A stretch of 64,000 bases of DNA, from assembly GCF_021401245.1 (NCBI RefSeq), contig NZ_JACBFY010000008.1, forward strand, positions 62,001-126,000, read 5' to 3'. Within the stretch, counting starts at the first letter, position 1; each line of letters begins with the position of its first letter. Source of the DNA: Pseudacidovorax sp. NFM-22. GTDB taxonomy: Bacteria > Pseudomonadota > Gammaproteobacteria > Burkholderiales > Burkholderiaceae_C. Shown here piece by piece: positions 49,935-64,000 of this stretch. The notes beneath the pieces were generated by a model. It did not search any database. It was not told the origin of the DNA and saw only the letters and a list, made by a program, of their open reading frames with translations. The translations under genes and the position numbers were made by a program.

Positions 49935-50828
49935 ATGGCGCACAAAGGCCGGCGCAAGGCGCTGCAGGAACCAGTCGAGCCGGCCGCGCGCCCGGTACAG
50001 ATGGATGAAGATGAAGGGCCGGAACGGCGCGTGCAGACCGATGCTCTGGACGAGGCCGGAGCCGAGCCCCCATCGCGTGCGGCCAGCGAATCCAGCCTGT
50101 CCCGCCTGCTCGGCACACTGGGCCTGTTCTCCACCGACGCCCCCTCGCTCACGGTCGAGGAGATCGCCGCCCGCCTGGGCGTGCCCAAGAGCACGGCCTA
50201 CCGCTACATCCAGGAGCTGTCGAAGGTGGGCCTGCTGGTGCGCCTGGACCGCAGCATCACGCTGGGTCCGCGGATCATCGAGCTGGACCGCTGCATCCGC
50301 GAGTCCGACCCCGTGATCCGCGCCGCCGCGCCGCCGATGCGCGAACTGGCCGAGCAGACGGGGCTGGACGTGTTCCTGTCCAAGCTCTACGGCCATTCCA
50401 TCATCACGGTGCACACCGAGTTCAACGACCCGCTGCCGCATCTGCGCTATGGCCGCGGCCGGCCGGTGCCCGTCTCGCGCGGTGCCAGTGCCAAGGCGCT
50501 GGTGGCCTTTCTCCCGGCGGCGCGGCTGCGGCGGCTTCACCAGGAGCTGGCGAGCGAATCGCCGGACACGCTGCCCTGGGAGGCCTTCTACGAAGAGGCG
50601 CAACGCATCCGCCGCGAGGGCTACTGCCGCACCTCGGGCGAACTCAATGTGGGCAAGACGGGCGTGTCGGCGCCCATCTTCGGCCGCGGGCGGCTGGTGG
50701 TGGCCAGTGTCACGGCGCTGGGCAGCGATGCGCGGCTGGCGCTGTTCGACGCCGAAGCCATTGCCGAACTGGTGCAGCGAACGGCCCACATGATCAGCGT
50801 GCGGCTGTCGGCGGACGGCCACCTGTAG
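49935..50828 (+). CDS. IclR-family transcriptional regulator
   Basis: A 297-residue regulator. After a charged N-terminal extension (about 1-50), an IclR winged helix (about 53-115; LTVEEIAARLGVPKSTAYRY) is followed by the IclR effector domain (about 120-290; FGRGRLVVASVTALG). AGGA lies 11 bases before ATG 49935. It faces a set of transporter and enzyme genes and probably regulates the catabolic operons from 50.9 kb on; the operator repeats at 55421 and 55563 are candidate sites (inference). The extension makes the true start less certain; ATG codons at 50001 and 50040 are possible. Confidence 0.9.
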   Translation: MAHKGRRKALQEPVEPAARPVQMDEDEGPERRVQTDALDEAGAEPPSRAASESSLSRLLGTLGLFSTDAPSLTVEEIAARLGVPKSTAYRYIQELSKVGLLVRLDRSITLGPRIIELDRCIRESDPVIRAAAPPMRELAEQTGLDVFLSKLYGHSIITVHTEFNDPLPHLRYGRGRPVPVSRGASAKALVAFLPAARLRRLHQELASESPDTLPWEAFYEEAQRIRREGYCRTSGELNVGKTGVSAPIFGRGRLVVASVTALGSDARLALFDAEAIAELVQRTAHMISVRLSADGHL

Positions 50829-50896: not shown

Positions 50897-51895
50897 TCAG
50901 AAGACGATGTTCGCCTTCTTGACGATGGGCGCTGCAGCCGCCAGCGAGCGGCGCCAGGTGTCCATCGCCTGGGCCGGCGTGCTCACGACGGGTTCCAGGC
51001 CCAGGGCCACCATGCGGGCCTGCACGTCGGCATCGGCGGCGATGGCCTGCAGCGCCGTGGCGAGCGTGCTCACCACCGACGCGGGCGTGCCGGCCGGCGC
51101 GAAGACGGCGAACCAGCCGGCATTGCCCATGTCGCGCACGCCCAGTTCCTCGAAAGTGGGCACCGCGGGCAGGGAGCGCACCCGGCGCAGTCCCGTCACC
51201 GCCAGGGGGCGCACCGAGCCGGCCGTGACCATGGCCTCGACCGCGGCGACGGTGAGGAACACCGCATCCACCTGTCCACCCATCAGGTCCGTCAGGGCGG
51301 GGGCGGAGCCCTTGTAGGGCACGTGCAGCAGATCGATGCCGGCCGATTCGGCCAGCACCTCGCCCATCACGTGGGCCGACGAGCCCGCGCCGAAGCTGCC
51401 GTAGCTGAGCTTGTTGGCCCTGGCCCGCTGCAGAAAGCCGCGGAGGTCGTGGGCCGGGCTGTCGGCACGCACGGCCAGCACCAGCGGCGCATTGGCCATG
51501 ACGCTCACGATGGTGAAGGCCTCCTGCATGGTCTTGCCCGGTGCCACCGACTGCTTGGAGGCCAGGGCGGCGATCACATGGGTGGAATTGCTGCCAAACA
51601 TCAGCGTGTGGCCATCGGCCGGCGCCTGCAGCACGGCGCGGGCCGCGATCAGGCCGTTGGCGCCGGGGCGGTTGTCGATGACCACCGTGCCGCCGAGCGC
51701 CGCCTGCAGCTTCTGGCCAATGAGCCGGGCCACGGTGTCGGTACCGCCGCCGGCGGCGAAGGGCACCACGAGGTTGATCGGGCGCTCGGGCCAGGCCGCG
51801 GCGCGGGCCATGCTGCAGCCCGCCGCGGCGAGTGCGGCCAGGGTGGCCAGCGCCTGGCGGCGCTGTGGCAAGAAGGTTGTGCGTGAAGAAGGCAT
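50897..51895 (-). CDS. Bug/TctC substrate-binding protein (1 of 4 in the catabolic region)
   Basis: A 332-residue periplasmic receptor with a Tat- or Sec-like N-terminus (MPSSRTTFLPQRRQALATLA; cleavage near ARA) and the Bug fold (INLVVPFAAGGGTDTVARLI; PGANGLIAARAVLQAPADG; HVPYKGSAPALTDLMGGQ). The signal peptide contains AAAGCSM, a possible lipobox. Likely ligand: a carboxylate of the pathway. It is the last gene of the minus-strand set; no permease genes are present. Confidence 0.88.
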   Translation of the reverse strand: MPSSRTTFLPQRRQALATLAALAAAGCSMARAAAWPERPINLVVPFAAGGGTDTVARLIGQKLQAALGGTVVIDNRPGANGLIAARAVLQAPADGHTLMFGSNSTHVIAALASKQSVAPGKTMQEAFTIVSVMANAPLVLAVRADSPAHDLRGFLQRARANKLSYGSFGAGSSAHVMGEVLAESAGIDLLHVPYKGSAPALTDLMGGQVDAVFLTVAAVEAMVTAGSVRPLAVTGLRRVRSLPAVPTFEELGVRDMGNAGWFAVFAPAGTPASVVSTLATALQAIAADADVQARMVALGLEPVVSTPAQAMDTWRRSLAAAAPIVKKANIVF

Positions 51896-51928
51896 GGAAG
51901 GTCTGGAGAACAAGAGAGTGGGGAGCCG

Positions 51929-52918
51929 TCAGTCGACGTGGATCTGCCGCGCCTTGACGATGCGCGCATAGGTGGCGCGGCCCTCGGCGATGCGGGCGGC
52001 CATCTGTTCGGGCGTGCTGTAGACCGTGGTGAAGCCCAGGTTGCCGAAGGCCTTGGCCACGGGCTCCGAGGCCAGGGCCGTGCGCATCGCTCCGTTGAGC
52101 CGTGCCACGATCTCCGGTGGCGTGCCGGCCGGCGCCAGCAGGCCGAAAAAGCCCTGGATGGTCATCTCGGGCAGGCCCGCCTCGGCGGCGGTGGGGATGT
52201 CGGGGAAAGCGGGGTCGCGCCGCTCGCCGGTCATGAACAGGGGCACCAGTTGCCCGGCGCGCAAGGCGCCGATCAGGGGCGAGGTCACTTCGTCCATCAA
52301 CTGCGCCTCGCCGCGGATCACGGCGTCCTTGGCCATCACCGCGCCCTTGTAGGGCACATGCACCACGGGTGCACCGGTGGCGGCCAGAAAGATCTCGCCC
52401 AGCAGGTGGTTGCTGGAGCCCATGCCGGCCGAGGCGAAGTTGAGCTGGCCCGGCTGCCGTTTGGCCAGCGCGACGAATTCCTGGACCGTGCGTACGCCGA
52501 GTGAGGGGTTGGTGACGAAGACGAAGGACTGGGTGGCGCCCAGGCTCACCGGCACCAGCGTTGCCACATGGCCCTGGTCGGGGTAGAGCACCGGCGCGGC
52601 GGTCAGGCTGCTGCCGCTGCCCCACAACAGGGTGTAGCCATCGGGCCGGGCCAGTGCGGCGGCCTTGGTGCCGATGCGCCCGCCTGCGCCGGTGCGGTTC
52701 TCGACCACCACCGGCTGTTTGAGCTCCACCGCCAGTGCCTGCGCCACGGCGCGGGCCGAGATGTCGGTCGAGCCGCCGGGCTCGAAAGAGACGATGAGCG
52801 TGATGGCGCGCGCCGGCCAGCTGTCGGCGGCGCGGGCAGCGGTGCTGGCGAAAAGGCTGGCGACCGCCAGCAGGAGGAACAGGCCGGCGCGGCGGCGGGT
52901 GGCATGACGAAGGGGCAT
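51929..52918 (-). CDS. Bug/TctC substrate-binding protein (2 of 4)
   Basis: A 329-residue Bug-family receptor with a Sec signal peptide (MPLRHATRRRAGLFLLLAVA, cleaved near ARA) and canonical motifs ITLIVSFEPGGSTDISAR, VVVENRTGAGGRIGTK and VHVPYKGAVMAKDAVI. ATG 52918 is supported by GGAG 8 bases upstream; another ATG at 52933 is possible. It sits 27 bp after the third Bug gene, in the same transcript. Confidence 0.9.
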   Translation of the reverse strand: MPLRHATRRRAGLFLLLAVASLFASTAARAADSWPARAITLIVSFEPGGSTDISARAVAQALAVELKQPVVVENRTGAGGRIGTKAAALARPDGYTLLWGSGSSLTAAPVLYPDQGHVATLVPVSLGATQSFVFVTNPSLGVRTVQEFVALAKRQPGQLNFASAGMGSSNHLLGEIFLAATGAPVVHVPYKGAVMAKDAVIRGEAQLMDEVTSPLIGALRAGQLVPLFMTGERRDPAFPDIPTAAEAGLPEMTIQGFFGLLAPAGTPPEIVARLNGAMRTALASEPVAKAFGNLGFTTVYSTPEQMAARIAEGRATYARIVKARQIHVD

Positions 52919-52945
52919 GGCGGACTCCGGCAACTGAGGGAGGTG

Positions 52946-53920
52946 TCAGTCCAGCGACACGTTGGCCTCGCGGGCCACGCGGCGCCACTTGTCCAGCTCG
53001 GCCTGCAGCTTGATGCGGAACTGGGCGCCGTCTGCGGCCGTGACCACCACGCCGCGGGCATTGAGCCGGGTTTCCATGTCGGGCGTGCGGATGACCTTGT
53101 CCAGCGCCGAGCCCAGGGTGCGCACGATGGCAGGCGGCGTGCTGGCGGGGGCGAACACGCCCATCCAGCCTTCGGCGACCAGGCCGTCGTAGCCCAGTTC
53201 CTGCAGCGTGGGCACCTCCGGCAGGCTGGGCAACCGCGTGGGCGAGGGCGTGGCCAGGGCGCGCAGCTTGCCGGCCTTGATCTGCGGCAGCGCCACGGCG
53301 GTGGTGTCGAAGGTGAAGTCCACGTCGCCGGCCAGCAACGAGGACATGGCCTGCTGGCTTCCCTGGAAGGGCACATGCGTGGCCCGCGTGCCGGTGGCGT
53401 GGAGGAAGAGCTCGCCGATCAGGTGATTGGTCGAGCCCATGCCGAAGGACGAGTAATTGAGCTTGCCCGGCTGCGCCTTGGCCCGGGCGATCAGCTCCTG
53501 CACGTTCTGCACCGGCGAGCCCGCGGGCACGGCCAGCACGAAGGTCACGATGCCCACCTCGGTGATCGGCACGAAGTCCTTGAGCAGGTCGTAGGGGGCG
53601 GTCTTGCGGGTGACGGGGTTGATGAGCAGCTCGGCCCCGGTGCCGAAGAACAGCGTCTGGCCGTCGGGCCGGGCGCGCGCGACCGACTGTGCGCCGATGG
53701 TGCCGCCCGCGCCTGCGCGGTTGTCCACGACCACGGACTGGCCGAGCTCGGGCGCCAGCTTCTCGGCGATCAGCCGGGCCGCACCGTCGGTACCGCCACC
53801 GGGCGGAAAGGCCACCACCAGGTGGACCGGCGCGGAGGGGTAGGCGGCCGGCTGGGCGCAGGCCAGTGCCGGCGCCAGGGCGGCCAGGCAGGACAGAAGA
53901 AGACGTCGCGACAACGGCAT
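52946..53920 (-). CDS. Bug/TctC substrate-binding protein (3 of 4)
   Basis: A 324-residue Bug receptor with a short signal peptide (MPLSRRLLLSCLAALAPAL; AQP) and motifs VHLVVAFPPGGGTDGAARLI, VVVDNRAGAGGTIGAQ and FGMGSTNHLIGELFLHATG. AAGGA lies 7 bases before ATG 53920. It is 30 bp downstream of a GST gene on the same strand, making a GST-GST-Bug-Bug-Bug operon. Confidence 0.9.
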   Translation of the reverse strand: MPLSRRLLLSCLAALAPALACAQPAAYPSAPVHLVVAFPPGGGTDGAARLIAEKLAPELGQSVVVDNRAGAGGTIGAQSVARARPDGQTLFFGTGAELLINPVTRKTAPYDLLKDFVPITEVGIVTFVLAVPAGSPVQNVQELIARAKAQPGKLNYSSFGMGSTNHLIGELFLHATGTRATHVPFQGSQQAMSSLLAGDVDFTFDTTAVALPQIKAGKLRALATPSPTRLPSLPEVPTLQELGYDGLVAEGWMGVFAPASTPPAIVRTLGSALDKVIRTPDMETRLNARGVVVTAADGAQFRIKLQAELDKWRRVAREANVSLD

Positions 53921-53950
53921 GGTCGTTCCTTCGAGGAGTGGAATCCGGGG

Positions 53951-54610
53951 TCAATGGGCCGGGGCGGCGGCGGCTCGGGCGGCGGCCCGTTCGCGCTCCC
54001 GCACGCCCTGCGCGGCAGCGGCCGCCTCGGCGGCGCGCACGCTCGGGCGGGCGCCGCAGCGCGCCAGGTAGCCCTCCAGGTGGGGCCAGCCCTGCGTGTC
54101 GATGGCATGGGCGCGGGTCCACATGGCGATCGTGTAGCAGTGCGCGTCGGCGATGGTGAAGTGCTCGCCGGTGAGGAAGCTGCGCCCGGCCAGCTGTTCG
54201 TCCACCCACTGCAGCTTGGCCTCGACGATGCGGCGCGCGATGGCCTTGTACTCGGGCGGCGTCACGGCCTTGAACAGCGGCATGAAGCCGCCCTTGTGCA
54301 GGTCGGCGGCGATGAAGCTCATCCACTCCAGCACGCGGTAGCGCGGCAGGCCCGCGGCCGGCAGCAGGGTGTTGCCGGGGCACTGGTCGGCCAGGTACTG
54401 CATCACGATGCAGCCCTCGCTCAGGTGCTGGCCGTCGGGCATCTCCAGCGTGGGCACGGTGCCCTTGGAGTTGACGCTGAAGTAGTCGCGCCCGTCCTCC
54501 AGGCGCTTGGTCTTCATGTCCACCCATTCGAGTGCCAGGGGCAGCTGCAGTTCGCGCGCGACGATGTCGACCGCGAGCGAACAGCCGCGGACTTCGTGAT
54601 AGAGCTTCAT
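53951..54610 (-). CDS. Glutathione S-transferase family protein (second of a pair)
   Basis: A 219-residue GST with a thioredoxin-like N-terminal domain (1-80; MKLYHEVRGCSLAVDIVARE, Cys 10 in the beta-class catalytic position; TVPTLEMPDG) and helical C-terminal domain (90-210). About 46% alike by eye with the upstream GST, so a tandem duplicate. The Cys-10 type suggests a thiol-transfer, dehalogenation or isomerisation role. The start ATG 54610 is inferred from the family N-terminus. Confidence 0.88.
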   Translation of the reverse strand: MKLYHEVRGCSLAVDIVARELQLPLALEWVDMKTKRLEDGRDYFSVNSKGTVPTLEMPDGQHLSEGCIVMQYLADQCPGNTLLPAAGLPRYRVLEWMSFIAADLHKGGFMPLFKAVTPPEYKAIARRIVEAKLQWVDEQLAGRSFLTGEHFTIADAHCYTIAMWTRAHAIDTQGWPHLEGYLARCGARPSVRAAEAAAAAQGVRERERAAARAAAAPAH

Positions 54611-54704
54611 GGGGTTCTCCGTGGAAGGGTTCGCAAGGTGTGAATGGATCCGGCGTGTTCCGGCGGGAGGAGCGGGCAGGGCGGGCTCGTTCGCCTTGTC
54701 AGGG

Positions 54705-55331
54705 TCAGGCGTTGGCCCGCCGGGCGATCTCGGCACGCTCCGCGGCGCGGGCGGCCTGCACGCTGGGCCGCGCCTCGATGCGCTGCACATAGGCCTGAAG
54801 GTGGGGCCAGGCCCCGAGCGGGATGGCCTGCAGCCCGGCCCAGCTCACGACGGCATAGGCATGGGCATCCGCGGCGGTGAAGCCCTCGCCGTGCAGGAAG
54901 TCGCGCCTGGCCAGCACCTCGTCGAGCCAGGCCAGGCGGCGCTGCACGTTCTCGGTGGCGATGGGCCGGTACTCGGGCGGCGTGTTGGCGCGGAACAGCG
55001 GCGTGAAGCTCTTGTGCAGCTCCGAGCCGAGGAAATTCATCCACTCCAGCACGCGGTAGCGCGCCATGTCCAGCGCGCGGGGCAGGAGCGCGTCGGCGCC
55101 GTGCCGGTCGCATAGGTACTGGAGGATCACGGCCGCCTCGGTGAGCACCTGGCCGTCGTCCGTTTCCAGCGCGGGCACCTGTCCCTTGGGGTTGATGCGG
55201 TGCAGATCGCGGCCGTCGGCCAGCCGCTTGGCGCGGACATCCACCCAGACGAGGTCGAGCGGCACACCGATCTCGCGCGCGACGACGTCCACTGCCAGGG
55301 CGCAGGTGTGGGGGCTGAGGTAGAGCTTCAT
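54705..55331 (-). CDS. Glutathione S-transferase family protein (first of a pair)
   Basis: A 208-residue beta-class-like GST: MKLYLSPHTCALAVDVVARE with Cys 10, NPKGQVPALETDDGQVLTE for the glutathione site, and the C-terminal domain LLGEGFTAADAHAYAV-like segment at about 145-165 (HGEGFTAADAHAYAVVSW). First gene of the minus operon; its promoter is in the 502-bp spacer with two operator repeats. Possible roles: conjugation or glutathione-dependent cleavage/isomerisation in a catabolic pathway. Confidence 0.88.
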   Translation of the reverse strand: MKLYLSPHTCALAVDVVAREIGVPLDLVWVDVRAKRLADGRDLHRINPKGQVPALETDDGQVLTEAAVILQYLCDRHGADALLPRALDMARYRVLEWMNFLGSELHKSFTPLFRANTPPEYRPIATENVQRRLAWLDEVLARRDFLHGEGFTAADAHAYAVVSWAGLQAIPLGAWPHLQAYVQRIEARPSVQAARAAERAEIARRANA

Positions 55332-55420
55332 TGGCGGGTGGTCCTTGCGCGGCGTGGTTGCCGCCTTGTGGTGCGGCTGTGCACCGATTCGTTGCATAGG
55401 GTCAAAACCATGGTCATGAA

Positions 55421-55438
55421 ATTACTGCTATGCGATAA
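55421..55438. promoter_or_regulatory. Operator repeat, copy 1
   Basis: ATTACTGCTATGCGATAA at 90 bp from the GST start codon. It matches copy 2 (55563-55580) at 15 of 18 positions; shared form ATTACTGC-WW-TGCGRTAA, a near-palindrome. Copies are 142 bp apart, about 13.5 helical turns, compatible with regulator looping. Confidence 0.6.
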
Positions 55439-55562
55439 ATGTGCCATTCGGCGCGGCGGGGGTGTGTTGGTGGAACTACCTGAGGGGGAAGGGCGTGCCT
55501 CTGTCCTTCGGCGCGTCGAATGACCGGCCTCGCTTGAAGAAGGGCATCCGGGTGGATCGTGG

Positions 55563-55580
55563 ATTACTGCATTGCGGTAA
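55563..55580. promoter_or_regulatory. Operator repeat, copy 2
   Basis: ATTACTGCATTGCGGTAA, with one more base (T) making ATTACTGC-ATT-GCGGTAAT, a 19-bp palindrome with a single mismatch. The likely binder is the IclR regulator at 49935 or another not encoded here. Confidence 0.62.
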
Positions 55581-55684
55581 TTCGTGGTCCTTCATCGGTC
55601 ATCCAGCCTGGAACGACCCTTGCATGCTCCGATGTCACTTGGACAAAACTGTGCACTTCACCGCCATTTTGTTGCTTGATATTA

Positions 55685-55717
55685 ATGCTGTATTTCGTCA
55701 CTAAGAAAAAACAGCAT
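55685..55717. promoter_or_regulatory. Inverted repeat upstream of the catabolic operon
   Basis: ATGCTGT (55685-55691) and ACAGCAT (55711-55717) are perfect 7-bp arms with a 19-bp spacer, about 120-150 bp before the Bug start. It overlaps the most AT-rich part of the spacer, so it may mark the plus-strand promoter. Confidence 0.45.
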
Positions 55718-55833
55718 ATGATCTGCACATCGACGAGCGGTTCGGAGTTGCCCGTTGTCCATCGCCGCCCAGGTGCTCACCCCCGGCACCTGGTCCCGGC
55801 CCCGTCTTCGCTGGGGTGCCAAGGAATCGCGCA

Positions 55834-56820
55834 ATGAGAAGGAAATCCGTACTGCAGGCCTGTGCCGCCATCGCTCTGGCGGCGGCATCCGGGCTGCTGC
55901 CGCTGCAGGCATCGGCCCAGGGCAACTGGCCCTCGCGGCCCATCCGCATCGTGGTGCCGTACCCGCCGGGCACCGGCCCCGACGTCATGGCCCGCCTGGT
56001 GGCAGACGGCCTGGGCAAGGAGCTCAAGGCGTCCATCGTGGTGGAGAACAAGGCGGGGGCCAACGGCATCATCGGCACCACCGAAGTGGTGAAGGCGCCG
56101 GCCGACGGCTACACCTACCTGCTGGTCGACCGGCTCACGCTCACCGTGAATCCGCTGCTCTACCAGCCGCCCTACGACCCGAAGAAGGACCTGGTCTCCG
56201 TCAGCAACATCGCCGACGTGAACCTGTACCTGGTCACCAGTGCCCAGTTGCCGGCCAACGACTTCAAGTCCTTCATCGCCTACGCCAAGGCGCATCCGGG
56301 CAAGGTCACCTTCGGCACCGGCGGCGTGGGCAGCGTGATGCACCTGAACATGGAACTGCTGCAGTCGGGCACCGGCGTGCAGTTCCTGCATGTGCCCTAC
56401 AAGGCGCTGGCCGAGGTGATCCCGGCCATGCTGGGCGGGCAGGTCGAGGCCACTTCCGGCGGGGTCGAGGCCATGCTGCCCTACGTGCAGAAGGGCAGCT
56501 TCAAGCTGCTGGCGGTAGGCGCGCCCACGCGCCAGTCCATCGTGCCCAACGTGCCGACCATCGTGGAGGCGGGCGGCTCCGACATGCTGCTGTCCACCTC
56601 GTACTCCTTCCACGCGAAAAGCGGCGTGCCGCCGGAGATCCTGGCGCGCATGAACGAGGCGCTGACCAAGGTGCTCTCCCAGCCCGAGCTCAAGCGCTGG
56701 GCGGCCGAGCGTGGCCTGGGCGCAGGTGCTTCCACGCCGGCCGAGCTGGACGCGCGCATCGCCGTCGACAACGAGCGCATCGGCCGCCTGGTGCGCGAGC
56801 GCGGCATCAAGGTGCAGTGA
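55834..56820 (+). CDS. Bug/TctC substrate-binding protein (4 of 4)
   Basis: A 328-residue periplasmic receptor with a signal peptide (about 1-29; MRRKSVLQACAAIALAAASG, cleaved near SAQ) and Bug motifs IRIVVPYPPGTGPDVMARLV, VVENKAGANGIIGTTEVVKA and LHVPYKALAEVIPAMLGGQ. ATG 55834 has AAGGAA 7 bases upstream; a GTG at 55816 is less likely. First gene of the plus-strand catabolic operon, presumably binding the growth substrate. Confidence 0.92.
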   Translation: MRRKSVLQACAAIALAAASGLLPLQASAQGNWPSRPIRIVVPYPPGTGPDVMARLVADGLGKELKASIVVENKAGANGIIGTTEVVKAPADGYTYLLVDRLTLTVNPLLYQPPYDPKKDLVSVSNIADVNLYLVTSAQLPANDFKSFIAYAKAHPGKVTFGTGGVGSVMHLNMELLQSGTGVQFLHVPYKALAEVIPAMLGGQVEATSGGVEAMLPYVQKGSFKLLAVGAPTRQSIVPNVPTIVEAGGSDMLLSTSYSFHAKSGVPPEILARMNEALTKVLSQPELKRWAAERGLGAGASTPAELDARIAVDNERIGRLVRERGIKVQ

Positions 56821-56859
56821 GCACCGCGTCTCGACCCACAAGCAAAGAGGACATCGGCG

Positions 56860-58422
56860 ATGACTGAGCAGACTGGCGCGCAGGCCCTGTGGGCGGCGCT
56901 CTCCGGCGAGGGGGTGGACACCTGCTTCGCCAACCCCGGCACGACGGAGCTGGATCTGGTGCGCGCGCTGGAAGGCCAGGATGCGATCCGCTGCGTGATC
57001 GGCCTGCAGGAGAACGTCTGCACCGGCGCGGCCGACGGCTACGGCCGCATGACGGGGCGGCCAGCCGCCACGTTGCTGCACCTGGGGCCTGGCTTCGCCA
57101 ACGGCATCGCCAACCTGCACAACGCGCGGCGTGCGCGCACGCCCATCGTCAACCTCATCGGCGACCACACCAGCTGGCACCTGCCCTTCGATGCCCCGCT
57201 CAGCTCGGACATCGAATCGCTGGCGCGGCCGGTGTCGGGCTGGGTGCACCGCATCGCCAGCACGGCCGATGCGCCGCGGGCGGCGGCCGAGTCGGTGCGC
57301 CAGTCGCTGGCCGACGGGGGGCAGGGCGCGACGCTGATCTTTCCGGCGGACTACCAGGCCGAGCCGCTGCCGGGCACGCCCGCGCCGGCCGCAGTGCCTG
57401 CCGCGGTCGCGGCGCCCGAGGCGCCTGCCCTCGACCTGGCGGCCTGCGCGCAACGCCTGCGCACGGCCCGCCGCATCGTGCTGCTGCTCGGCGGCGGTGG
57501 CGAAGCGGGCGGCCTGGGTGCACGGGCCCAGCGCGCGGCGTCCCGCCTGTGCGCCGCCCTGGGCGCCACCGCCTATGCCGAGACCTTCCCGGCCCGCGCC
57601 GAGCGCGGCCAGGGCCTGCCGGCCTTCGACCGGCTGCCCTACTTTCCCGAGCCGGCACGCGCCGTGCTCGACCCGGCCGACCTGGTGCTGCTGGCCGGTG
57701 CGCTGCCGCCGGTCACCTACTTTGGCTACGCGGGGCATCCCAGCCTGCTGGTGGCGCCCGAGCGCCTGCTGAGCCTGGGCTCCCCCGGCCGTCCGGTGGC
57801 CGAGGTGCTGGAGCAACTGGCCGACGCGCTCGATGCACCGCCCTTCGAGGCCCCGGTTCACCCGCTGCCTGCCGCGCCCACCGGGCCGCTCACGCCGGCC
57901 GCCATCGGTGCAGTGCTCACGCGGGCTCTGCCGGAAGGCGCCATCGTCTCGGTCGAAGGCGGCACCTGCGGCTATCCCTTCTATGCCGCTTCGGCCGTGG
58001 CGCCGCTGCACACGGCGCTCACCAACACCGGCGGTGCCATCGGCCAGGGCCTGCCTGTGGCGGTGGGCGCGGCCATCGCCTGCCCGGGGCGGCAGGTGGT
58101 GGGGCTGCTGTCGGACGGCAGCACCCAGTACACGATCCAGGCGCTCTGGACGATGGCGCACGAGCAGCTCGACGTGGTCGTGCTCATCGCCGCCAACCAC
58201 CAGTACGCCATCCTGCGCAACGAACTGCGCCGCGGCGGCGCACCGCTGGGCAAGCGGGCCGAGGCGCTGACGGCGCTCGATTCGCCGCGCATCGACTGGG
58301 TCGGGCTGGCGCAGTCGTACGGCGTGCCCGCCACGCGCGCGGCCACGGCAGAGGAACTCGCGGCCCAACTGCAGGACGCCTTCGGCCGCCGCGGCCCGGC
58401 CCTCATCGAAATGGCCCTCTGA
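56860..58422 (+). CDS. Thiamine-diphosphate-dependent enzyme (acetolactate synthase/benzoylformate decarboxylase-like)
   Basis: A 520-residue ThDP enzyme of the acetolactate-synthase superfamily. N-terminal Pyr domain with catalytic Glu in GLQENVCTGAADGYGR (about 51), middle domain, and C-terminal PP domain with the metal/ThDP motif LLSDGSTQYTIQALW (about 420; SDG where most have GDG) and ANHQYAILRNE. It lacks a clear ilvN partner and flavin-type features are not evident. By context it decarboxylates a 2-keto acid or cleaves a C-C bond of a pathway intermediate (inference). Confidence 0.85.
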   Translation: MTEQTGAQALWAALSGEGVDTCFANPGTTELDLVRALEGQDAIRCVIGLQENVCTGAADGYGRMTGRPAATLLHLGPGFANGIANLHNARRARTPIVNLIGDHTSWHLPFDAPLSSDIESLARPVSGWVHRIASTADAPRAAAESVRQSLADGGQGATLIFPADYQAEPLPGTPAPAAVPAAVAAPEAPALDLAACAQRLRTARRIVLLLGGGGEAGGLGARAQRAASRLCAALGATAYAETFPARAERGQGLPAFDRLPYFPEPARAVLDPADLVLLAGALPPVTYFGYAGHPSLLVAPERLLSLGSPGRPVAEVLEQLADALDAPPFEAPVHPLPAAPTGPLTPAAIGAVLTRALPEGAIVSVEGGTCGYPFYAASAVAPLHTALTNTGGAIGQGLPVAVGAAIACPGRQVVGLLSDGSTQYTIQALWTMAHEQLDVVVLIAANHQYAILRNELRRGGAPLGKRAEALTALDSPRIDWVGLAQSYGVPATRAATAEELAAQLQDAFGRRGPALIEMAL

Positions 58423-58462
58423 GCACCCGCTCGGGCCGGAACCCTCCAAGGAGCAAACGAAC

Positions 58463-59257
58463 ATGGACCTCAGACTCAAGGGCAAGGTGGCCGTGGTGAC
58501 CGGCGGCAGCCTGGGCATCGGCCGCGCGGTGGCCGAGGCCTTCGCGGCCGAAGGCGTGCGCGTGGCCATCGTGGCCCGCAGTCAGGGCGCGCTGGAGCAG
58601 GCCGCGCGCGAGATCACCGAGAAGACTGGCACCGAGGTGCTGGCCGCCCCGGCCGACGTGAGCGACACGGCGCAGGTGCAGGCCGCCGTCGACAAGGTGG
58701 CGGCGCACTTCGGCCGCATCGACATCCTGGTCAACGGTGCTGCCCATCCGGGTGGCCTGGTGCGCAGCGAGATCGAGAACGCCGACCCCGAAGGCCTGCT
58801 GCAGGACATCGACATCAAGGTCGTGGGCTACATGCGCTTCGCCAAGGCCTGTGCGGCGCACATGCGAAAGGGCGGCTGGGGCCGCATCGTCAACATCGGC
58901 GGGCTCACCGGGCGCGGCAGCAAGCAGCTGTCGGGCATGCGCAACGTGGCCGTGGCGCACCTGACCAAGACGCTGTCCGACCAGCTCGGCCCCTCGGGCA
59001 TCACCGTCAACGTGATCCATCCGGGCGTGGTGGAGACGCCGCACATCCACGAGCTCTACGCCAAGGAGGCCAAGCTGCAGGGCCTGACGCCCGCGCAGGT
59101 GGAGGCCAACTACGCCAAGGCGACGCCGATCCGCCGCGTGCTGCAGGTGGACGAGATCGCGGACGTGGTGCTCTTCCTTTCGTCCGACCGCGCGGCGGCC
59201 ATCACCGGCGAATCCATCGCGGTGGATGGCGGCATCACGCGCGGCATCTTCCTCTGA
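58463..59257 (+). CDS. SDR-family protein lacking the catalytic triad
   Basis: A 264-residue Rossmann-fold protein with the cofactor motif TGGSLGIGRAVAEAFAAEGV (about 12-31) and C-terminal VDGGITRGIFL. In the catalytic region, where SDRs have Ser, Tyr-x-x-x-Lys, the sequence is NIGGLTG then SGMRN: by alignment from AVAHLTKTL, Ser, Tyr and Lys are replaced by Gly, Ser and Asn. The cofactor fold may be used for binding or for a different chemistry. Related proteins of this type exist to my memory but without known function. Confidence 0.85.
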   Translation: MDLRLKGKVAVVTGGSLGIGRAVAEAFAAEGVRVAIVARSQGALEQAAREITEKTGTEVLAAPADVSDTAQVQAAVDKVAAHFGRIDILVNGAAHPGGLVRSEIENADPEGLLQDIDIKVVGYMRFAKACAAHMRKGGWGRIVNIGGLTGRGSKQLSGMRNVAVAHLTKTLSDQLGPSGITVNVIHPGVVETPHIHELYAKEAKLQGLTPAQVEANYAKATPIRRVLQVDEIADVVLFLSSDRAAAITGESIAVDGGITRGIFL

Positions 59258-59292
59258 GACCGAGACATCCAGCCATCCAAGGAGCGATCGAC

Positions 59293-60330
59293 ATGAACGG
59301 AACCATTCTTGTGGGCACGGCGGGACAGGGCATCCTGCGCAGCGTGGACGACGGCGCCACCTGGCACCGCCTGGGCCTGAAGGAGGCCATCGAGTTCGAC
59401 GGCACAGTGCGGGCGCTGGCGGTGGATCCGTCCGACCCGAGCCGGGTGCTGGCCGGCGCCGACGTGGGCATCTGCCTGTCCACCGACGGCGGCGCGCATT
59501 TCCAGCGCGTGGCCTCGCCGGCGGACGGCCAGACCGTCTGGGCCCTGGCCTTCTGCCCGACCGATCCGCAACTGGTGCTGGCGGGCACCGGAGCACCCTC
59601 GCGGGCCTGCATGTACCGTTCGCGCGATGGCGGGCGCAGCTGGCAGACGCTCGACGTGGAACTGCCCGAGTTCTGCGCCGGCGTGAACCGCCCGCGCATC
59701 CTCACCATCGCCTTCCATCCGCAGAAGGCCGGCGAGGCCTGGTTCGGCGTGGAGGAGGGCGGCGCCTGGCGCACGCGCGATGCCGGCGACCGGTGGGAGC
59801 GCATCGACACGCCCGGCCGCGGCATCAACAACTCCGACATCCACGCCATCGCCGTGCTGCCCGCCACGGCCGATGCGCCAGCCAAGCACATCGTGGTGAC
59901 GGTCAACGCCGTGTGCGAGAGCACGGACGACGCCGAAAGCTTCCGCTGCCATCCGTCGAAGGACCGCTTCGATGGCCTCTACTACACCCGCACCGTGCAG
60001 CCGCTGGACGCCGAGGGCCGCGAGCTGCTGCTGGCCATCGGCGACGGCACGCCGGGCTCGCGCACGCGCATCTACCGCTCCGCCGACCGCGGCGAGACCT
60101 GGGCGCAGACCCTGCTGAACACGGCGCCCAATTCCACCGTGTGGACCTTCGGCACGCATGCCAGCGACCGCGGCCTGCTCTTCGCCGGCACCAAGTACGG
60201 GCACCTGCTGCGCTCGACCAACGGCGGACGCAGCTGGTTCAAGGAATGGCGCGACTTCAGCGAGATCACCTCGGTGGCCTGGACGCCCTTCGTGGCGCCC
60301 GTGCACGCGCATCCGCAGTCCATCAACTGA
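59293..60330 (+). CDS. Cytoplasmic Asp-box (BNR/sialidase-type) beta-propeller protein
   Basis: A 345-residue protein made of repeated blades, each with an Asp box: SVDDGATW, STDGGAHF, SRDGGRSW, TRDAGDRW, SADRGETW and STNGGRSW. No signal peptide is present (MNGTILVGTAGQG), unlike most propellers of this type. No catalytic residues of sialidases can be placed. It might be a scaffold, lactonase-like hydrolase or sensor in the pathway. It begins 35 bp after the SDR gene. Confidence 0.8.
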   Translation: MNGTILVGTAGQGILRSVDDGATWHRLGLKEAIEFDGTVRALAVDPSDPSRVLAGADVGICLSTDGGAHFQRVASPADGQTVWALAFCPTDPQLVLAGTGAPSRACMYRSRDGGRSWQTLDVELPEFCAGVNRPRILTIAFHPQKAGEAWFGVEEGGAWRTRDAGDRWERIDTPGRGINNSDIHAIAVLPATADAPAKHIVVTVNAVCESTDDAESFRCHPSKDRFDGLYYTRTVQPLDAEGRELLLAIGDGTPGSRTRIYRSADRGETWAQTLLNTAPNSTVWTFGTHASDRGLLFAGTKYGHLLRSTNGGRSWFKEWRDFSEITSVAWTPFVAPVHAHPQSIN

Positions 60331-60346
60331 CATCCGAAGGCCGGCC

Positions 60347-60847
60347 ATGAACACCCGCACCCCCGCATCCGCCAACGGCGCCGGCACCGAGGTCCGCCCG
60401 CGCATCCGACGTACCCACCTGGCGCTGTTCGTGAAGGACCCCTTCGCCTCGGCCCCGTGGTACGAGGATGTGCTGGGCATGCAGGTCACGGCGCGCGGGG
60501 CGCGCTGGGTGTTCCTGTCCTTCGGCCAGAAGCACCACGACATCGCGCTGATCAAGGTGGACGACCCGGAGACCGCCACGCGCGGCACGATCAACCTGCA
60601 GCACTACGGCCTGGAGATCGAGGGCGACATCGACGACCTGCGCCGCCTCTACGGCATGCTGCTCCGCAAGAACGTGGAGGTGGTCAAGACCACCGACCAC
60701 AAGGTGGGCTACGGCCTGTACTTCCACGACCCCGACGGGCACCGCTTCGAGTTCTTCCTCGAAGTGGTGCACGACGACGAGGAGGCCAAGCGCCTGCTGG
60801 GCGAATACAACGCCCCCAGCGATGCCTTCGACCTGCAGCCGTTGTGA
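60347..60847 (+). CDS. VOC family protein, extradiol-dioxygenase/glyoxalase-like
   Basis: A 166-residue VOC protein (about 22-150) retaining candidate metal ligands: His in RTHLALFVKDP, His in NLQHYGLEIEG and Glu in GHRFEFFLEV. A single complete metal site suggests a lyase, isomerase or single-domain type I dioxygenase role. ATG 60347 lies 16 bp after the propeller gene. A ring-cleavage dioxygenase would be expected to be larger (two modules). Confidence 0.85.
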   Translation: MNTRTPASANGAGTEVRPRIRRTHLALFVKDPFASAPWYEDVLGMQVTARGARWVFLSFGQKHHDIALIKVDDPETATRGTINLQHYGLEIEGDIDDLRRLYGMLLRKNVEVVKTTDHKVGYGLYFHDPDGHRFEFFLEVVHDDEEAKRLLGEYNAPSDAFDLQPL

Positions 60848-60891
60848 GCCGCCGGTCCCGACCCTTCTCCGCATTCAGAAAGACGCCTTCC

Positions 60892-61494
60892 ATGAGCACC
60901 CCCGACCTCAGCGCCTTCCACATCCGCAAGTGGTACCTCCAGATCGAGGACACCCTGGCCGGCGAGACCGGTGCGCCCGCCGACGGCGAGCCGCTGCGCA
61001 AGATCGTCATCGCCGCCTGCCTGCGCAACCCCTTTGCGGGCCGCTTCGTGCAGGACCTGTCCGAATGGATCGGTCCCTCGCCCGAGCTGGGCAAGGAATT
61101 CGGCCGCCGCATCCGCGAGGCCGCGGCCGGCCAGCGCATCGAGAGCTACGGCAAGGCCTGCCTCGTCGGCATCGACGGCGAGTACGAGCACGGCAACGCG
61201 CTGCTGACCAACCCCGCCGCCAACCCGGTGCGCGAGGGCGTGGGGGGCGGCAAGTCCTGGGTGCCTTCCACCGGCAAGCGCGGCGGCCCCGGCACCATCA
61301 TCGACATCCCGCTGGCGCACAAGGACGCGCTGTACGTGCGCTCGCACTACGACACCGTGTCCGCCATGTTCGGCGACGGACCCAACCGCGACGAGGTGGT
61401 GCTGATCTGGGCCTTCGCCACGCGCGGCCGTCTCAATGCACGCCTGGGCGGCCTGAAGGCCTCCGAGATCAAGGGCGCGGACGGCCTGGTCTGA
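60892..61494 (+). CDS. AA_synth (DUF1185) family protein
   Basis: A 200-residue protein of the family annotated as amino acid synthesis (DUF1185), commonly found in Burkholderiales beside catabolic genes. It has FHIRKWYLQIEDTLAGE at the N-terminus, GKACLVGIDGEYEHGNAL (about 84) and a basic GKSWVPSTGKRGGPGT segment. Enzymatic role unproven. It lies 44 bp after the VOC gene. Confidence 0.78.
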   Translation: MSTPDLSAFHIRKWYLQIEDTLAGETGAPADGEPLRKIVIAACLRNPFAGRFVQDLSEWIGPSPELGKEFGRRIREAAAGQRIESYGKACLVGIDGEYEHGNALLTNPAANPVREGVGGGKSWVPSTGKRGGPGTIIDIPLAHKDALYVRSHYDTVSAMFGDGPNRDEVVLIWAFATRGRLNARLGGLKASEIKGADGLV

Positions 61495-61513
61495 GCGCCG
61501 CAGGAGAGGCTCC

Positions 61514-62386
61514 ATGCAACGCTGCGATCATCGCCTGGCCCTGAACGGCCTGGTCTTCCATGTCACCGAATGGGGCGAGCCCGACGCCTGGCCGGTGCTG
61601 ATGCTGCACGGCATCCGCGGCTATGCCGAGACTTTCGCCGGCGTGGCTGCCGCGCTGCAGCCGGGATCGCGCGTCATCGCCTTCGACCAGCGCGGCCGCG
61701 GCGAGACCGACTGGGACCCGAAGCACGACTACTACACCGACGCCTACGTGGCCGATGTCGAGGCGCTGGTGGCGCAACTGGGCCTGGCGCGCTTCGACCT
61801 GTTGGGCCATTCCATGGGCGGCATCAACGCCATCGTCTATGCCGCCCGGCATCCACAGCAGCTGCGCCGCCTGGTCATCGAGGACGCCGGGCCCGGTGCC
61901 TTCGAGGCCAGCGATGGCGCCACCCGCATCCGCAAGGAGCTGGCGACCACGCCCACCACCTTTGCCAGCTGGGACGAGGCCGCCGCCTTCATGCGCGCGC
62001 TGCGACCCACGGTGACCGAAGAGGCACGCCAGCAGCGGCTGCAGAACATGCTCAAGCCCCTGGAAGGCGGCGGCTTCACCTGGCGCTACGACCATGCGGG
62101 CATCGTCGCCACGCGGCTGAACCCGGACCCGGCCCGCAAGGTGGACCTGGCCGCGCATGTGCAGCAGCTGCGCTGCGAGACGCTGGTGGTGCGGGGCGGC
62201 CGCTCCGATTACCTGCAGCCGGCCATGGTCGCGCACATGCAGGCGCTCAATCCGCGCATCGCCGCCATCGAGATTCCCGATGCGGGCCACTACATCCACG
62301 ACGACCAGCCGGCGCGCTTCGCCGAGGCCGTCACCGCCTTCCTGAAGCGGCCCGACGCGGCCGCCATCGACCCCCTCCGACCATGA
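61514..62386 (+). CDS. Alpha/beta hydrolase
   Basis: A 290-residue alpha/beta hydrolase: HGIRGYAETF oxyanion region, nucleophile elbow GHSMGG (about 99-104), acid RGGRSDYLQ (Asp about 229) and His in PDAGHYIHDDQ (about 256). The layout fits C-C bond hydrolases (MhpC/BphD group) as well as esterases or lactonases. In this operon a role in opening or cleaving a ring-fission or lactone intermediate is plausible. Its stop overlaps the NIPSNAP start by four bases. Confidence 0.88.
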   Translation: MQRCDHRLALNGLVFHVTEWGEPDAWPVLMLHGIRGYAETFAGVAAALQPGSRVIAFDQRGRGETDWDPKHDYYTDAYVADVEALVAQLGLARFDLLGHSMGGINAIVYAARHPQQLRRLVIEDAGPGAFEASDGATRIRKELATTPTTFASWDEAAAFMRALRPTVTEEARQQRLQNMLKPLEGGGFTWRYDHAGIVATRLNPDPARKVDLAAHVQQLRCETLVVRGGRSDYLQPAMVAHMQALNPRIAAIEIPDAGHYIHDDQPARFAEAVTAFLKRPDAAAIDPLRP

Positions 62387-62679
62387 TTCACGAACTGCGA
62401 ACCTACACCCTGGTGCCCGGCGGTGTGCGCGACTACCTGCGCATCTACAACGAGACCGGCCGCGAGTTGCAGACCGGCATCCTGGGCCGGCTGGTGGCGC
62501 TCATGACGCCCGAGAGCGGCGACGTCAACCAGCTGGTCTTCCACTGGTCCTTCGACAGCCTGGACGAGCGCAGCCGTCGCCGCGCCACGCTGATGGCCGA
62601 CCCGGCCTTCGCGGAGTTCCGCAAGCAGGTGCGTCACCTGCTGGTGCGGCAGGAAAGCCGGCTGCTGTCGGCCGCCTGA
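62383..62679 (+). CDS. NIPSNAP family protein
   Basis: A 98-residue dimeric alpha-beta barrel protein (MIHELRTYTLVPGGVRDYLR, LVFHWSFDSLDERSRRRA, FRKQVRHLLVRQESRLL). NIPSNAP domains are frequent in catabolic operons beside monooxygenases and hydrolases, though their role there is unclear. Coupled to the alpha/beta hydrolase (ATGA overlap). Confidence 0.85.
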   Translation: MIHELRTYTLVPGGVRDYLRIYNETGRELQTGILGRLVALMTPESGDVNQLVFHWSFDSLDERSRRRATLMADPAFAEFRKQVRHLLVRQESRLLSAA

Positions 62680-62719
62680 GTTCCCGGCCCCGTTCCCCTC
62701 CCACGTCTCCGGAGTCCCC

Positions 62720-64000
62720 ATGAGCGCTTCCGCGGAAGAAGTCCCCGTCCTCATCATCGGTGCCGGCCCGGTCGGCGTGACGCTGGCCAACCTGCTCGGC
62801 ACCTACGGAGTGCAGACGTTGGTGGTCGAACGCAGCCCCGCGGTGCTGGACTTCCCGCGTGCCGTGGGCCTGGACGACGAAGCCCTGCGCACCTTCCAGG
62901 CCACCGGCCTGGCCGAAGAGATGCTGCGCGACATGATCCAGAACGTGCCCATGCGCATGTACACGGCGCGCAAGCAGTGCTTCGCCGAGATCCTGCCCAG
63001 CACACGCGAGTTCGGCTGGTTCCGCCGCAACCTGTTCTCGCAGCCGCTGGGCGAGAAGACGCTGCGGCGCGGCCTGGCGCGCTTTCCCCACGTGCAACTG
63101 CGGCTCGGTGTGGAACTGGTCGCGCTGACGCAGGACGAGGCCGGCGTCAGCGCCAGCCTGCGCGACGAAGCCGGAGCCGAGCGGCAGGTGCGCGCCGCCT
63201 ATGTGGTGGCCTGCGACGGCGGTCGCAGCACGGTGCGAGAGATGCTCGGACTGCCCTACGAGGGCCGCACCCATCCCGCCAAGTGGGTGGTGATCGAATG
63301 CGACCAGGATCCGCTGGACGCGCCCTACACCGCGCTGCACTGCGAGCCCGCGCGCCCCTACGTCTGCCTGCGCCTGCCCTACGGTCTGCGCCGCTGGGAG
63401 TTCATGCTCTTTCCCGGCGAGGACGGCGAGCAGATGCTGGCGCCCGACAAGGTGCGCGAGCTGCTGGGCCGCCATGTGGCCGATCCGTCGGCGCTCAACG
63501 TGATCCGCGCGCGGGTCTACACCCACAACTCGCGTGTGGCCGGCCGCTTCGTCAGCGGGCGCGTCTGCCTGGCCGGCGATGCCGCCCACATCACGCCGCC
63601 GTGGATCGGCCAGGGCCTCAATGCCGGCCTGCGCGATGCCTTCAACCTGGGCTGGAAGCTGGCCTGGATCCTCCAGGGCCGGCTGCGGCCCGCGCTGCTG
63701 ACCAGCTACCACGACGAGCGCCATGCCCATGCCAAGGCCATGATCGACCTGGCCGACACCTTCGGCGCCGTGCTGTCGCAGCGCAATCCGCTGCTGGCCT
63801 GGGCGCGCGACCGCTTCTTCATGGCCATCCGCGGCGTTCCGGCGGTGCGCGACTATGTGCTGCAGATGAAGTTCAAGCCTATGCCGCGCTTCGTGCAGGG
63901 CGTGGTGCGCAACAGCGGCGTGGCGGCGCGGGACGCGCTGGTGGGCCGCATGTTCATCCAGCCCAACGTGGAGCGCCGGCGCGGCGGCGCCGAGAAGCTG
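62720..64000 (+). CDS. FAD-dependent monooxygenase, MhpA-like (partial, runs off window)
   Basis: The first 427 residues of a flavoprotein aromatic hydroxylase. FAD GxGxxG is in LIIGAGPVGVTLANLLG (about 11-27), then VACDGGRSTVREMLG (about 160) and the second FAD motif GDAAHITPPWIGQGLNAG (about 285), as in 3-(3-hydroxyphenyl)propionate 2-hydroxylase. It likely adds a hydroxyl to a phenolic or heteroaromatic ring using NAD(P)H and O2. The C-terminus is outside the window. Start ATG 62720 follows GGAG closely. Confidence 0.9.
   Translation, partial: MSASAEEVPVLIIGAGPVGVTLANLLGTYGVQTLVVERSPAVLDFPRAVGLDDEALRTFQATGLAEEMLRDMIQNVPMRMYTARKQCFAEILPSTREFGWFRRNLFSQPLGEKTLRRGLARFPHVQLRLGVELVALTQDEAGVSASLRDEAGAERQVRAAYVVACDGGRSTVREMLGLPYEGRTHPAKWVVIECDQDPLDAPYTALHCEPARPYVCLRLPYGLRRWEFMLFPGEDGEQMLAPDKVRELLGRHVADPSALNVIRARVYTHNSRVAGRFVSGRVCLAGDAAHITPPWIGQGLNAGLRDAFNLGWKLAWILQGRLRPALLTSYHDERHAHAKAMIDLADTFGAVLSQRNPLLAWARDRFFMAIRGVPAVRDYVLQMKFKPMPRFVQGVVRNSGVAARDALVGRMFIQPNVERRRGGAEKL

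Follow-up and report, generated by a model that had tools for sequence, protein, structure and literature searches.

We describe an operon of Pseudacidovorax sp. NFM-22 that lies in a 64,000-nucleotide stretch, hereafter the window (NCBI RefSeq assembly GCF_021401245.1, contig NZ_JACBFY010000008.1, positions 62,001 to 126,000; part of contig C20 of a 6.4-Mb genome), and encodes a Bug-type binding protein, a thiamine diphosphate (ThDP) enzyme, a short-chain dehydrogenase/reductase (SDR), an Asp-box beta-propeller, a vicinal oxygen chelate (VOC) protein, an AA_synth protein, an alpha/beta hydrolase, a NIPSNAP-family protein and an MhpA-like FAD hydroxylase (Table 1). We give about an even chance to the reading that it is a patchily distributed catabolic operon, in which a phenolic or hydroxypyridine-type ring is opened oxidatively, the product is hydrolysed and a semialdehyde is converted to an acid. 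The gene set, its synteny, the protein families, their conserved catalytic residues and the presence of succinate semialdehyde dehydrogenase (SSADH) in relatives are established. The family list itself, proposed in an initial annotation of the window, was borne out by Pfam and NCBIfam. These families are individually known; for three of them, PF06684/DUF1185 (AA_synth), the Asp-box propeller and the SDR subfamily without a catalytic triad, no assigned reaction was found, and neither the gene combination nor the reactions of these three were found described in the open-access literature searched. With three such families inside one conserved operon, their annotations become testable together by growth and assay.

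Conservation of the gene set

Related loci were gathered by a scan with the AA_synth protein alone, one genome per species, yielding 54 loci whose flanks reach 10 kb at most and sometimes less; the counts are thus conditional on AA_synth. Gene presence was counted by tblastn of every gene on the loci, because the open reading frame (ORF) caller took wrong frames in several GC-rich loci. The propeller is present in 53 of the 54 loci, the hydrolase in 51, VOC and SDR in 41 each, ThDP in 39, MhpA in 27, and NIPSNAP and an aldehyde dehydrogenase (ALDH; at least 60% identity) in 25 each. A seven-gene core (ThDP, SDR, propeller, VOC, AA_synth, hydrolase and MhpA) occurs in 25 loci, with identical order and strand in all 25, and by title these belong to Pseudacidovorax, Variovorax, Acidovorax, Paracidovorax, Herbaspirillum, Roseateles, Pigmentiphaga, Rubrivivax and Burkholderiales with less specific names. 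In 14 sphingomonad loci the core is complete except for MhpA; a different flavin monooxygenase lies near the edge in nine of them (PF08028 in the three checked). The remaining 15 loci comprise two full-form members whose genes are truncated by a contig end (L021, L043), 12 that hold propeller and AA_synth, and L059, where AA_synth is the sole member of the set; of those 12, 10 have the hydrolase and 10 have matches to glutathione S-transferase (GST) and Bug genes. The AA_synth gene of L069 reaches the contig end. Among named organisms, Pseudacidovorax intermedius DSM 21352 (L018) has the most similar cluster, with 99% identity in AA_synth and 97-100% in the other genes from Bug4 to the second IclR regulator, IclR2.

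The initial annotation had staked its pathway idea on the genes occurring together in other genomes, and they do so both among the 54 AA_synth loci and in a search of 399 genomes of the order, own genome included, for SDR, ThDP and propeller (the best few first-look candidates per genome being scored). At 64% identity or more, these three are matched in just two genomes, the own and G267, where they share a contig and span about 5 kb at most, and close relatives apart from each other were found in 0 of the 399 genomes; elsewhere the next-best matches are 48% for SDR, 47% for ThDP and 39% for the propeller. AA_synth is also matched without these three, at 61-65% in three genomes and 48-51% in seven. 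The genes are co-inherited as a real unit, beyond chance. The operon is patchily distributed over beta- and alphaproteobacteria, several of the genera being plant-associated, and the patchiness suggests possible horizontal transfer.

Gaps from Bug4 to MhpA, recomputed from ORF coordinates, are 39, 40, 35, 16, 44, 19, -4 and 40 bp across nine genes on one strand, as the initial annotation had them (-4 to 44 bp), and this spacing together with the conserved order makes a single transcript likely. All nine annotated genes are present, and the operon proved longer: extension past 64 kb completed MhpA and added, on the same strand, an SSADH-like ALDH, a nitroreductase-family gene and IclR2.

Predicted enzymes

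The hydroxylase scores 765 bits against NF004831 (cut-off 546) and so matches the MhpA-type FAD hydroxylase known from the mhp pathway. The VOC protein has 166 residues, of which H24, H64, H86, H118, Y125 and E135 are kept in 42 of 42 sequences, and in 24 of 24 in a further count; we take these to be the 2-His-1-Glu metal site and the second-sphere His and Tyr of type-I extradiol dioxygenases. The full metal site noted in the initial annotation (H24, H86, E135) is therefore intact, as are H64, H118 and Y125. Foldseek with its AlphaFold model (pLDDT 87.3) ranks FosA first and 9u42, titled homogentisate 1,2-dioxygenase, second, with HPCD from rank 22.

The best solved relatives of the ThDP enzyme are benzoylformate decarboxylases (BFDC; 144 bits), with acetolactate synthases at about 90 bits, a BFDC-like character that suits the keto-acid decarboxylase initially suggested. 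E51, H74, D419 and N446 are kept in 40 of 40 sequences, and E51 and H74 align with BFDC, being presumably the catalytic Glu and the equivalent of His70. Ser26 and His281 of BFDC, which we assume to be functional residues, are not kept (T28 and F288 in 40 of 40), the His281 position having been set by eye against a BFDC chain that is a variant there. The NCBIfam BFDC model gives 211 bits, under its cut-off of 493, and the model passed, PRK07586, is named acetolactate synthase. The SDR retains its nucleotide-binding motif and lacks the classical triad: in place of Ser-Tyr-Lys it has Gly146/Gly147, Ser157 and Asn161. This loss, already remarked in the initial annotation, is kept in 42 of 42 sequences and is therefore not a sequencing error.

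Solved relatives of AA_synth are 2qtp and 3byq. The propeller AlphaFold2 model (pLDDT 94.2) is matched in Foldseek by 3b7f, GH74 enzymes and YCF48, and the protein has no visible export signal. Eight polar residues outside its Asp-boxes (R135, E154, D182, H184, Y231, R233, N280 and E324) are invariant over 39 sequences down to 30% identity, and this invariance suggests that they form a candidate active site. In seven of eight loci with a distant relative of the propeller (30-38%; L072-L077, L084 and L085, the exception being L084), Bug genes are found no more than about 2 kb away from it, and its neighbours in some are a PF04909 amidohydrolase, an arylmalonate-decarboxylase-family gene, an HpcH/HpaI aldolase and flavin monooxygenases; the family may be part of organic-acid catabolism more broadly. 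A second propeller-like ORF (29%) lies downstream of the operon in Pseudacidovorax NS331 (L023:18276-19316).

The hydrolase conserves S100, H259, D124 and D232 over 52 sequences. Its best solved relatives are 7c4d, 3bwx and the enamide hydrolase 3kxp, above MhpC types, and the initial label of an MhpC-like C-C hydrolase did not hold up well: a solved esterase scores 79.7 bits and 3kxp 74.6, against 52.3 for MhpC-type entries, and ten loci keep the hydrolase without MhpA, VOC and ThDP. The ALDH downstream of MhpA has 5vbf, named SSADH, as its best solved match (679 bits), followed by 9zh8 and 5x5t (2-oxoglutarate semialdehyde dehydrogenase) at about 508. A second ALDH occurs in 14 of the 54 loci (at least 65% identity to the L029 gene); that of L029 scores 738 bits, over the NCBIfam SSADH cut-off of 646, and the one sphingomonad ALDH checked scores 627, just under it.

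Proposed pathway and alternatives

From these families we infer the reactions, their order and the substrate. Bug proteins bind anionic substrates, and those encoded here would do the same. The MhpA-like FAD enzyme would hydroxylate the ring, aromatic or of hydroxypyridine type, and O2-dependent opening of the resulting diol would fall to the VOC protein. The opened chain would then be cleaved by the alpha/beta hydrolase at an ester, C-C or N-acyl/enamide bond, and the hydrolase product may be completed by AA_synth and the propeller, through decarboxylation, tautomerisation or hydrolysis of an enamine. The ThDP enzyme would turn a 2-oxo acid into an aldehyde and CO2, and the ALDH, with a true SSADH in many relatives, would turn a dicarboxylic semialdehyde into the acid. 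The presence of a hydrolase alongside a flavin hydroxylase and a VOC of extradiol type is compatible with the ring hydroxylation, cleavage and hydrolysis first suggested for the cluster. For the substrate we lean slightly to a nitrogen-bearing ring or side chain, because of the contexts of AA_synth and the amine genes of relatives; a carbocyclic phenol stands nearly level with it, because of the MhpA family name and HcdD, the AA_synth protein of a coumarin pathway.

The closest worked-out logic is, by analogy, that of the kpi cluster of Arthrobacter sp. IN13, where 4-hydroxypyridine is reportedly opened by a PF01494 monooxygenase and an extradiol enzyme, and a PF00561 hydrolase acts on the N-formyl product (PMC7356986). 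Shared with the operon are the PF01494 flavin monooxygenase, extradiol ring opening (predicted here), the PF00561 hydrolase and, in the sphingomonad form, an FAA-family gene; the kpi ring opener KpiC is an amidohydrolase-fold dioxygenase whereas the operon has a VOC protein, and the available gene-table rows name no ThDP, SDR, propeller, AA_synth or NIPSNAP gene (PMC7356986). A KpiC-type amidohydrolase was not found among the operon proteins, nor an enamidase match in the window, L009 or L010. A trigonelline (tgn)-type set presumably consists of AA_synth, a hydrolase, SSADH and a two-component luciferase-like oxygenase. AA_synth and hydrolase are present in the window, the ALDH stays under the SSADH cut-off where a relative's second ALDH exceeds it, and the luciferase-like oxygenase is absent among the operon proteins and present in L102, a locus without MhpA-like, VOC, ThDP or propeller matches. 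TgnF, the AA_synth homologue of trigonelline degradation in Acinetobacter baylyi, is said to stimulate TgnE-dependent oxidation of succinate semialdehyde (PMC7913881). Plain mhp, benzoylformate, kpi and trigonelline operons were rejected as descriptions of the cluster, their defining parts being missing.

It is possible, if doubtful, that the substrate is a carbocyclic phenol of mhp or hcd type, a phenylpropanoid or coumarin-derived acid that is hydroxylated, opened by extradiol cleavage through VOC and cut by C-C hydrolysis to succinate-level products. NCBIfam places the hydroxylase among its 3-(3-hydroxyphenyl)propionate hydroxylase models, sphingomonad loci hold an FAA-hydrolase-family gene, and a sulfatase-family gene is present in the five loci of Pigmentiphaga type, L046, L070 and three that bear the name. 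In the 7-hydroxycoumarin cluster of Pseudomonas mandelii 7HK4, as far as the source is available, the AA_synth protein HcdD stands next to hcdABC, whose products include the hydroxylase HcdA and the dioxygenase HcdB; the hcdDEFG genes include a Zn-ADH, a cupin and an FMN reductase, and no ThDP, propeller or SDR is named there (PMC7913881). The mhp system shares with the operon the MhpA-type hydroxylase and the alpha/beta hydrolase superfamily, to which its C-C hydrolase belongs, but LigB-type MhpB, MhpD, MhpE and MhpF were not found among the operon proteins scanned, and the hydrolase lies closer to the esterase and enamide hydrolase than to MhpC-type entries. Ten loci hold propeller, AA_synth and hydrolase without the oxygenase genes, and AA_synth elsewhere often adjoins enamidase-like genes, both of which speak against a carbocyclic route.

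The AA_synth contexts come from 13 other loci, namely five of the ten matches outside the own genome and G267 in the 399-genome check and all eight places of a further scan other than the operon. Six of the 13 have an enamidase-like amidohydrolase within about 5 kb of AA_synth (L079, L080, L081, L082, L097 and L100, with L081 and L082 belonging to one genus); that of L079 scores 342 bits to the solved enamidase 2vun, an MhpA-like match (27-28%, about 105 bits) comes immediately downstream in L081 and L082, and L100 also carries a molybdenum hydroxylase. L102 and L103 run AA_synth, alpha/beta hydrolase, flavin reductase, with a luciferase-like oxygenase and an ALDH following in L102, a layout resembling that of the trigonelline genes. 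Neighbours elsewhere are a carboxylesterase-family gene in L078, an amidohydrolase from a different family in L099 and Bug genes in L098 and L104, the last of which also has a VOC and an FAA-hydrolase-family gene. The AA_synth fold is chorismate-mutase-like and, we assume, common to RidA enamine deaminases. One further reading, which we consider rather unlikely, is that propeller, AA_synth and hydrolase form an unrecognised module for ring-fission products of N-heteroaromatics, in which the hydrolase would cut an enamide, AA_synth would be an enamine or formyl-acid enzyme and the cytosolic propeller would be a new enzyme class, so that the operon would take a plant pyridine-type compound to succinate semialdehyde. 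If AA_synth is such an enzyme, this would explain its presence in trigonelline-like, enamidase-bearing and coumarin gene sets.

Several observations weigh against the proposed oxidative ring-opening pathway and its lean to nitrogen. Among the 20 best Foldseek matches of the VOC model, 15, with rank 1 among them, are by title Fos-type thiol transferases, and the sequence match of VOC to dioxygenases (homoprotocatechuate dioxygenase) is weak; the protein could be a thiol transferase. Propeller, AA_synth and hydrolase persist in ten loci that lack VOC, ThDP and MhpA, so the VOC product is not necessarily the substrate of the hydrolase, and the three may carry out a separate step. The window ALDH stays below the NCBIfam SSADH cut-off (483 against 646 bits), and the second ALDH is missing from the window's own locus and lineage at this place, in the stretch around the operon. 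Five of the 13 other AA_synth loci (L078, L098, L099, L101 and L104) show no match to the enamidase or hydrolase queries. HcdD comes from a carbocyclic coumarin pathway, and a TgnF-like effect reportedly could not be demonstrated for it (PMC7913881). The enamidase-like neighbours may themselves be KpiC-type dioxygenases (PMC7356986).

The same Fos-type titles, along with the two adjoining GST genes, would suit detoxification, in which GST, VOC and hydrolase clear a toxic electrophile instead of supporting growth. We hold this very improbable: a conserved layout that unites four binding proteins with a decarboxylase-like ThDP enzyme and an SSADH-like ALDH looks catabolic, and a GST match is lacking within the flanks of 16 of the 25 full loci. 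On that last count the GSTs were also rejected as maleyl-isomerases essential to the system in general.

Amine genes of relatives raise another alternative, catabolism of an arylalkylamine or amino-acid side chain by transamination and aldehyde oxidation, with the operon as the ring part of the amine pathway. All three Herbaspirillum loci and one Paracidovorax locus have a class-III aminotransferase close to the cluster, and Herbaspirillum and Roseateles-type loci carry an amino-acid permease, an EutR-like AraC regulator and a phenylacetaldehyde-dehydrogenase-like ALDH. Counted over the loci, 13 of the 14 sphingomonad ones have a class-III aminotransferase; of the 25 full loci, four have one of another type and eight a permease. 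Most full loci, however, lack aminotransferase and permease within their flanks, including the four Pseudacidovorax, four of five Variovorax and five Pigmentiphaga-type loci, and no match to either was found near the window's own operon, in the window or in the 32.5 kb beyond 55.5 kb; this tells both against the proposed pathway with its lean to nitrogen and against the amine alternative, which we regard as improbable, the amine genes possibly being unrelated neighbours.

Gene layout and regulators

Table 1. Features of the cluster in window coordinates
Feature	Position	Strand	Remarks
IclR1 regulator	49935..50828	+	Pfam IclR_C and HTH_IclR; just outside 50897-64000
Bug1, TctC-type binding protein	50897..51913	-	PF03401, 206 bits; at least 40% identity in 18/54 loci
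Bug2	51929..52933	-	PF03401, 194 bits; at least 55% in 17/54 loci
Bug3	52946..53920	-	PF03401, 251 bits; at least 50% in 18/54 loci
GST1	53951..54610	-	Pfam GST_N/GST_C; start conserved among relatives; ORF start possible out to 54790
GST2	54705..55331	-	Pfam GST_N/GST_C; relatives in Reyranella-type loci; ORF start possible out to 55397
Operator-like motif CTAWNCGATAAA (candidate)	55428..55439	+	Inside divergent gap
Bug4, opens right operon	55816..56820	+	PF03401, 202 bits; at least 60% in 13/54 loci
ThDP enzyme, PRK07586 family, benzoylformate-decarboxylase-like	56860..58422	+	NF005760, 662 bits (cut-off 363)
SDR without Ser-Tyr-Lys	58463..59257	+	adh_short_C2
Asp-box beta-propeller, probably seven-bladed	59293..60330	+	Pfam Sortilin-Vps10/BNR
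VOC, single-domain, type-I extradiol-like residues	60347..60847	+	PF00903
AA_synth (DUF1185)	60892..61494	+	PF06684, 221.5 bits
Alpha/beta hydrolase	61514..62386	+	PF00561
NIPSNAP-family small protein	62383..62679	+	PF07978, 72 bits; in 24/25 full loci
MhpA-like FAD hydroxylase	62720..64000, cut by window end	+	PF01494, 259 bits; true end at 64426 on the window scale (L009:8927)

The IclR regulator, GST pair and Bug set recur together as one arm with the operon, as the initial annotation had grouped them; IclR1 belongs with this system although it falls outside the range 50897-64000 to which it had been assigned. GST1 and GST2 are free of overlap when their starts are placed at the conserved MKLY (at about 54610 and 55331). 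IclR1 orthologues (91-99%) stand beside Bug1, just past the fetched edge, in all seven relatives with the GST/Bug arm that were searched. Relatives of IclR2 (at least 50%) occur in 13 of the 25 full loci; the gene divergent to them is ThDP in Herbaspirillum, Rubrivivax and Pigmentiphaga-type loci and Bug4 in L031. In four of five relatives searched, an orthologue (95-100%) is found some 9-11 kb beyond the other locus edge. Both IclR1 and IclR2 are linked to the operon. A preference for IclR2 as the regulator was dropped, the apparent absence of IclR1 from relatives being an edge effect of fetched stretches that stopped at Bug1, and either of the two may govern the operon.

The divergent gap carries CTATGCGATAAA, the sole window match to CTAWNCGATAAA at no more than one mismatch (chance mean 0.11). 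Such matches occur in 20 of the 54 loci, 15 of them exact, these counts covering the very gaps that supplied the motif. Among loci remote from those used, L027 has a match in the gap before the propeller and L028 and L037 have one elsewhere; the Herbaspirillum and Rubrivivax gaps gave no match. We offer the motif as a lead, a candidate operator.

Other genes near the cluster or near AA_synth were also recorded. Beyond IclR2 lie an octopine-dehydrogenase-family (ODH) gene and others, the ODH and HCDH genes occupying L009:12700-14830. Relatives of these two (64% and 50%, respectively) are also borne by L059, where an AA_synth 71% identical to that of the window stands near sarcosine-oxidase-like, Rieske dioxygenase, alpha/beta hydrolase and Bug genes (L059:5406-17110). 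Further downstream of the cluster, L009:17191-19362 encodes a large ThDP-domain protein (PF02775) that by eye resembles indolepyruvate ferredoxin oxidoreductase, with a divergent MarR gene alongside. Elsewhere in the own genome (L097:7135-14011, G000:C14), two tandem AA_synth genes are accompanied by the enamidase-like amidohydrolase and a ferredoxin-NADP reductase-like gene; a large protein of L097 has a cysteine motif that by eye resembles one in L100, and the set may be a reductive nicotinate-type pathway. Near IclR1, a 1016-residue ORF on the minus strand (window 46118-49168) has an autotransporter-like reading.

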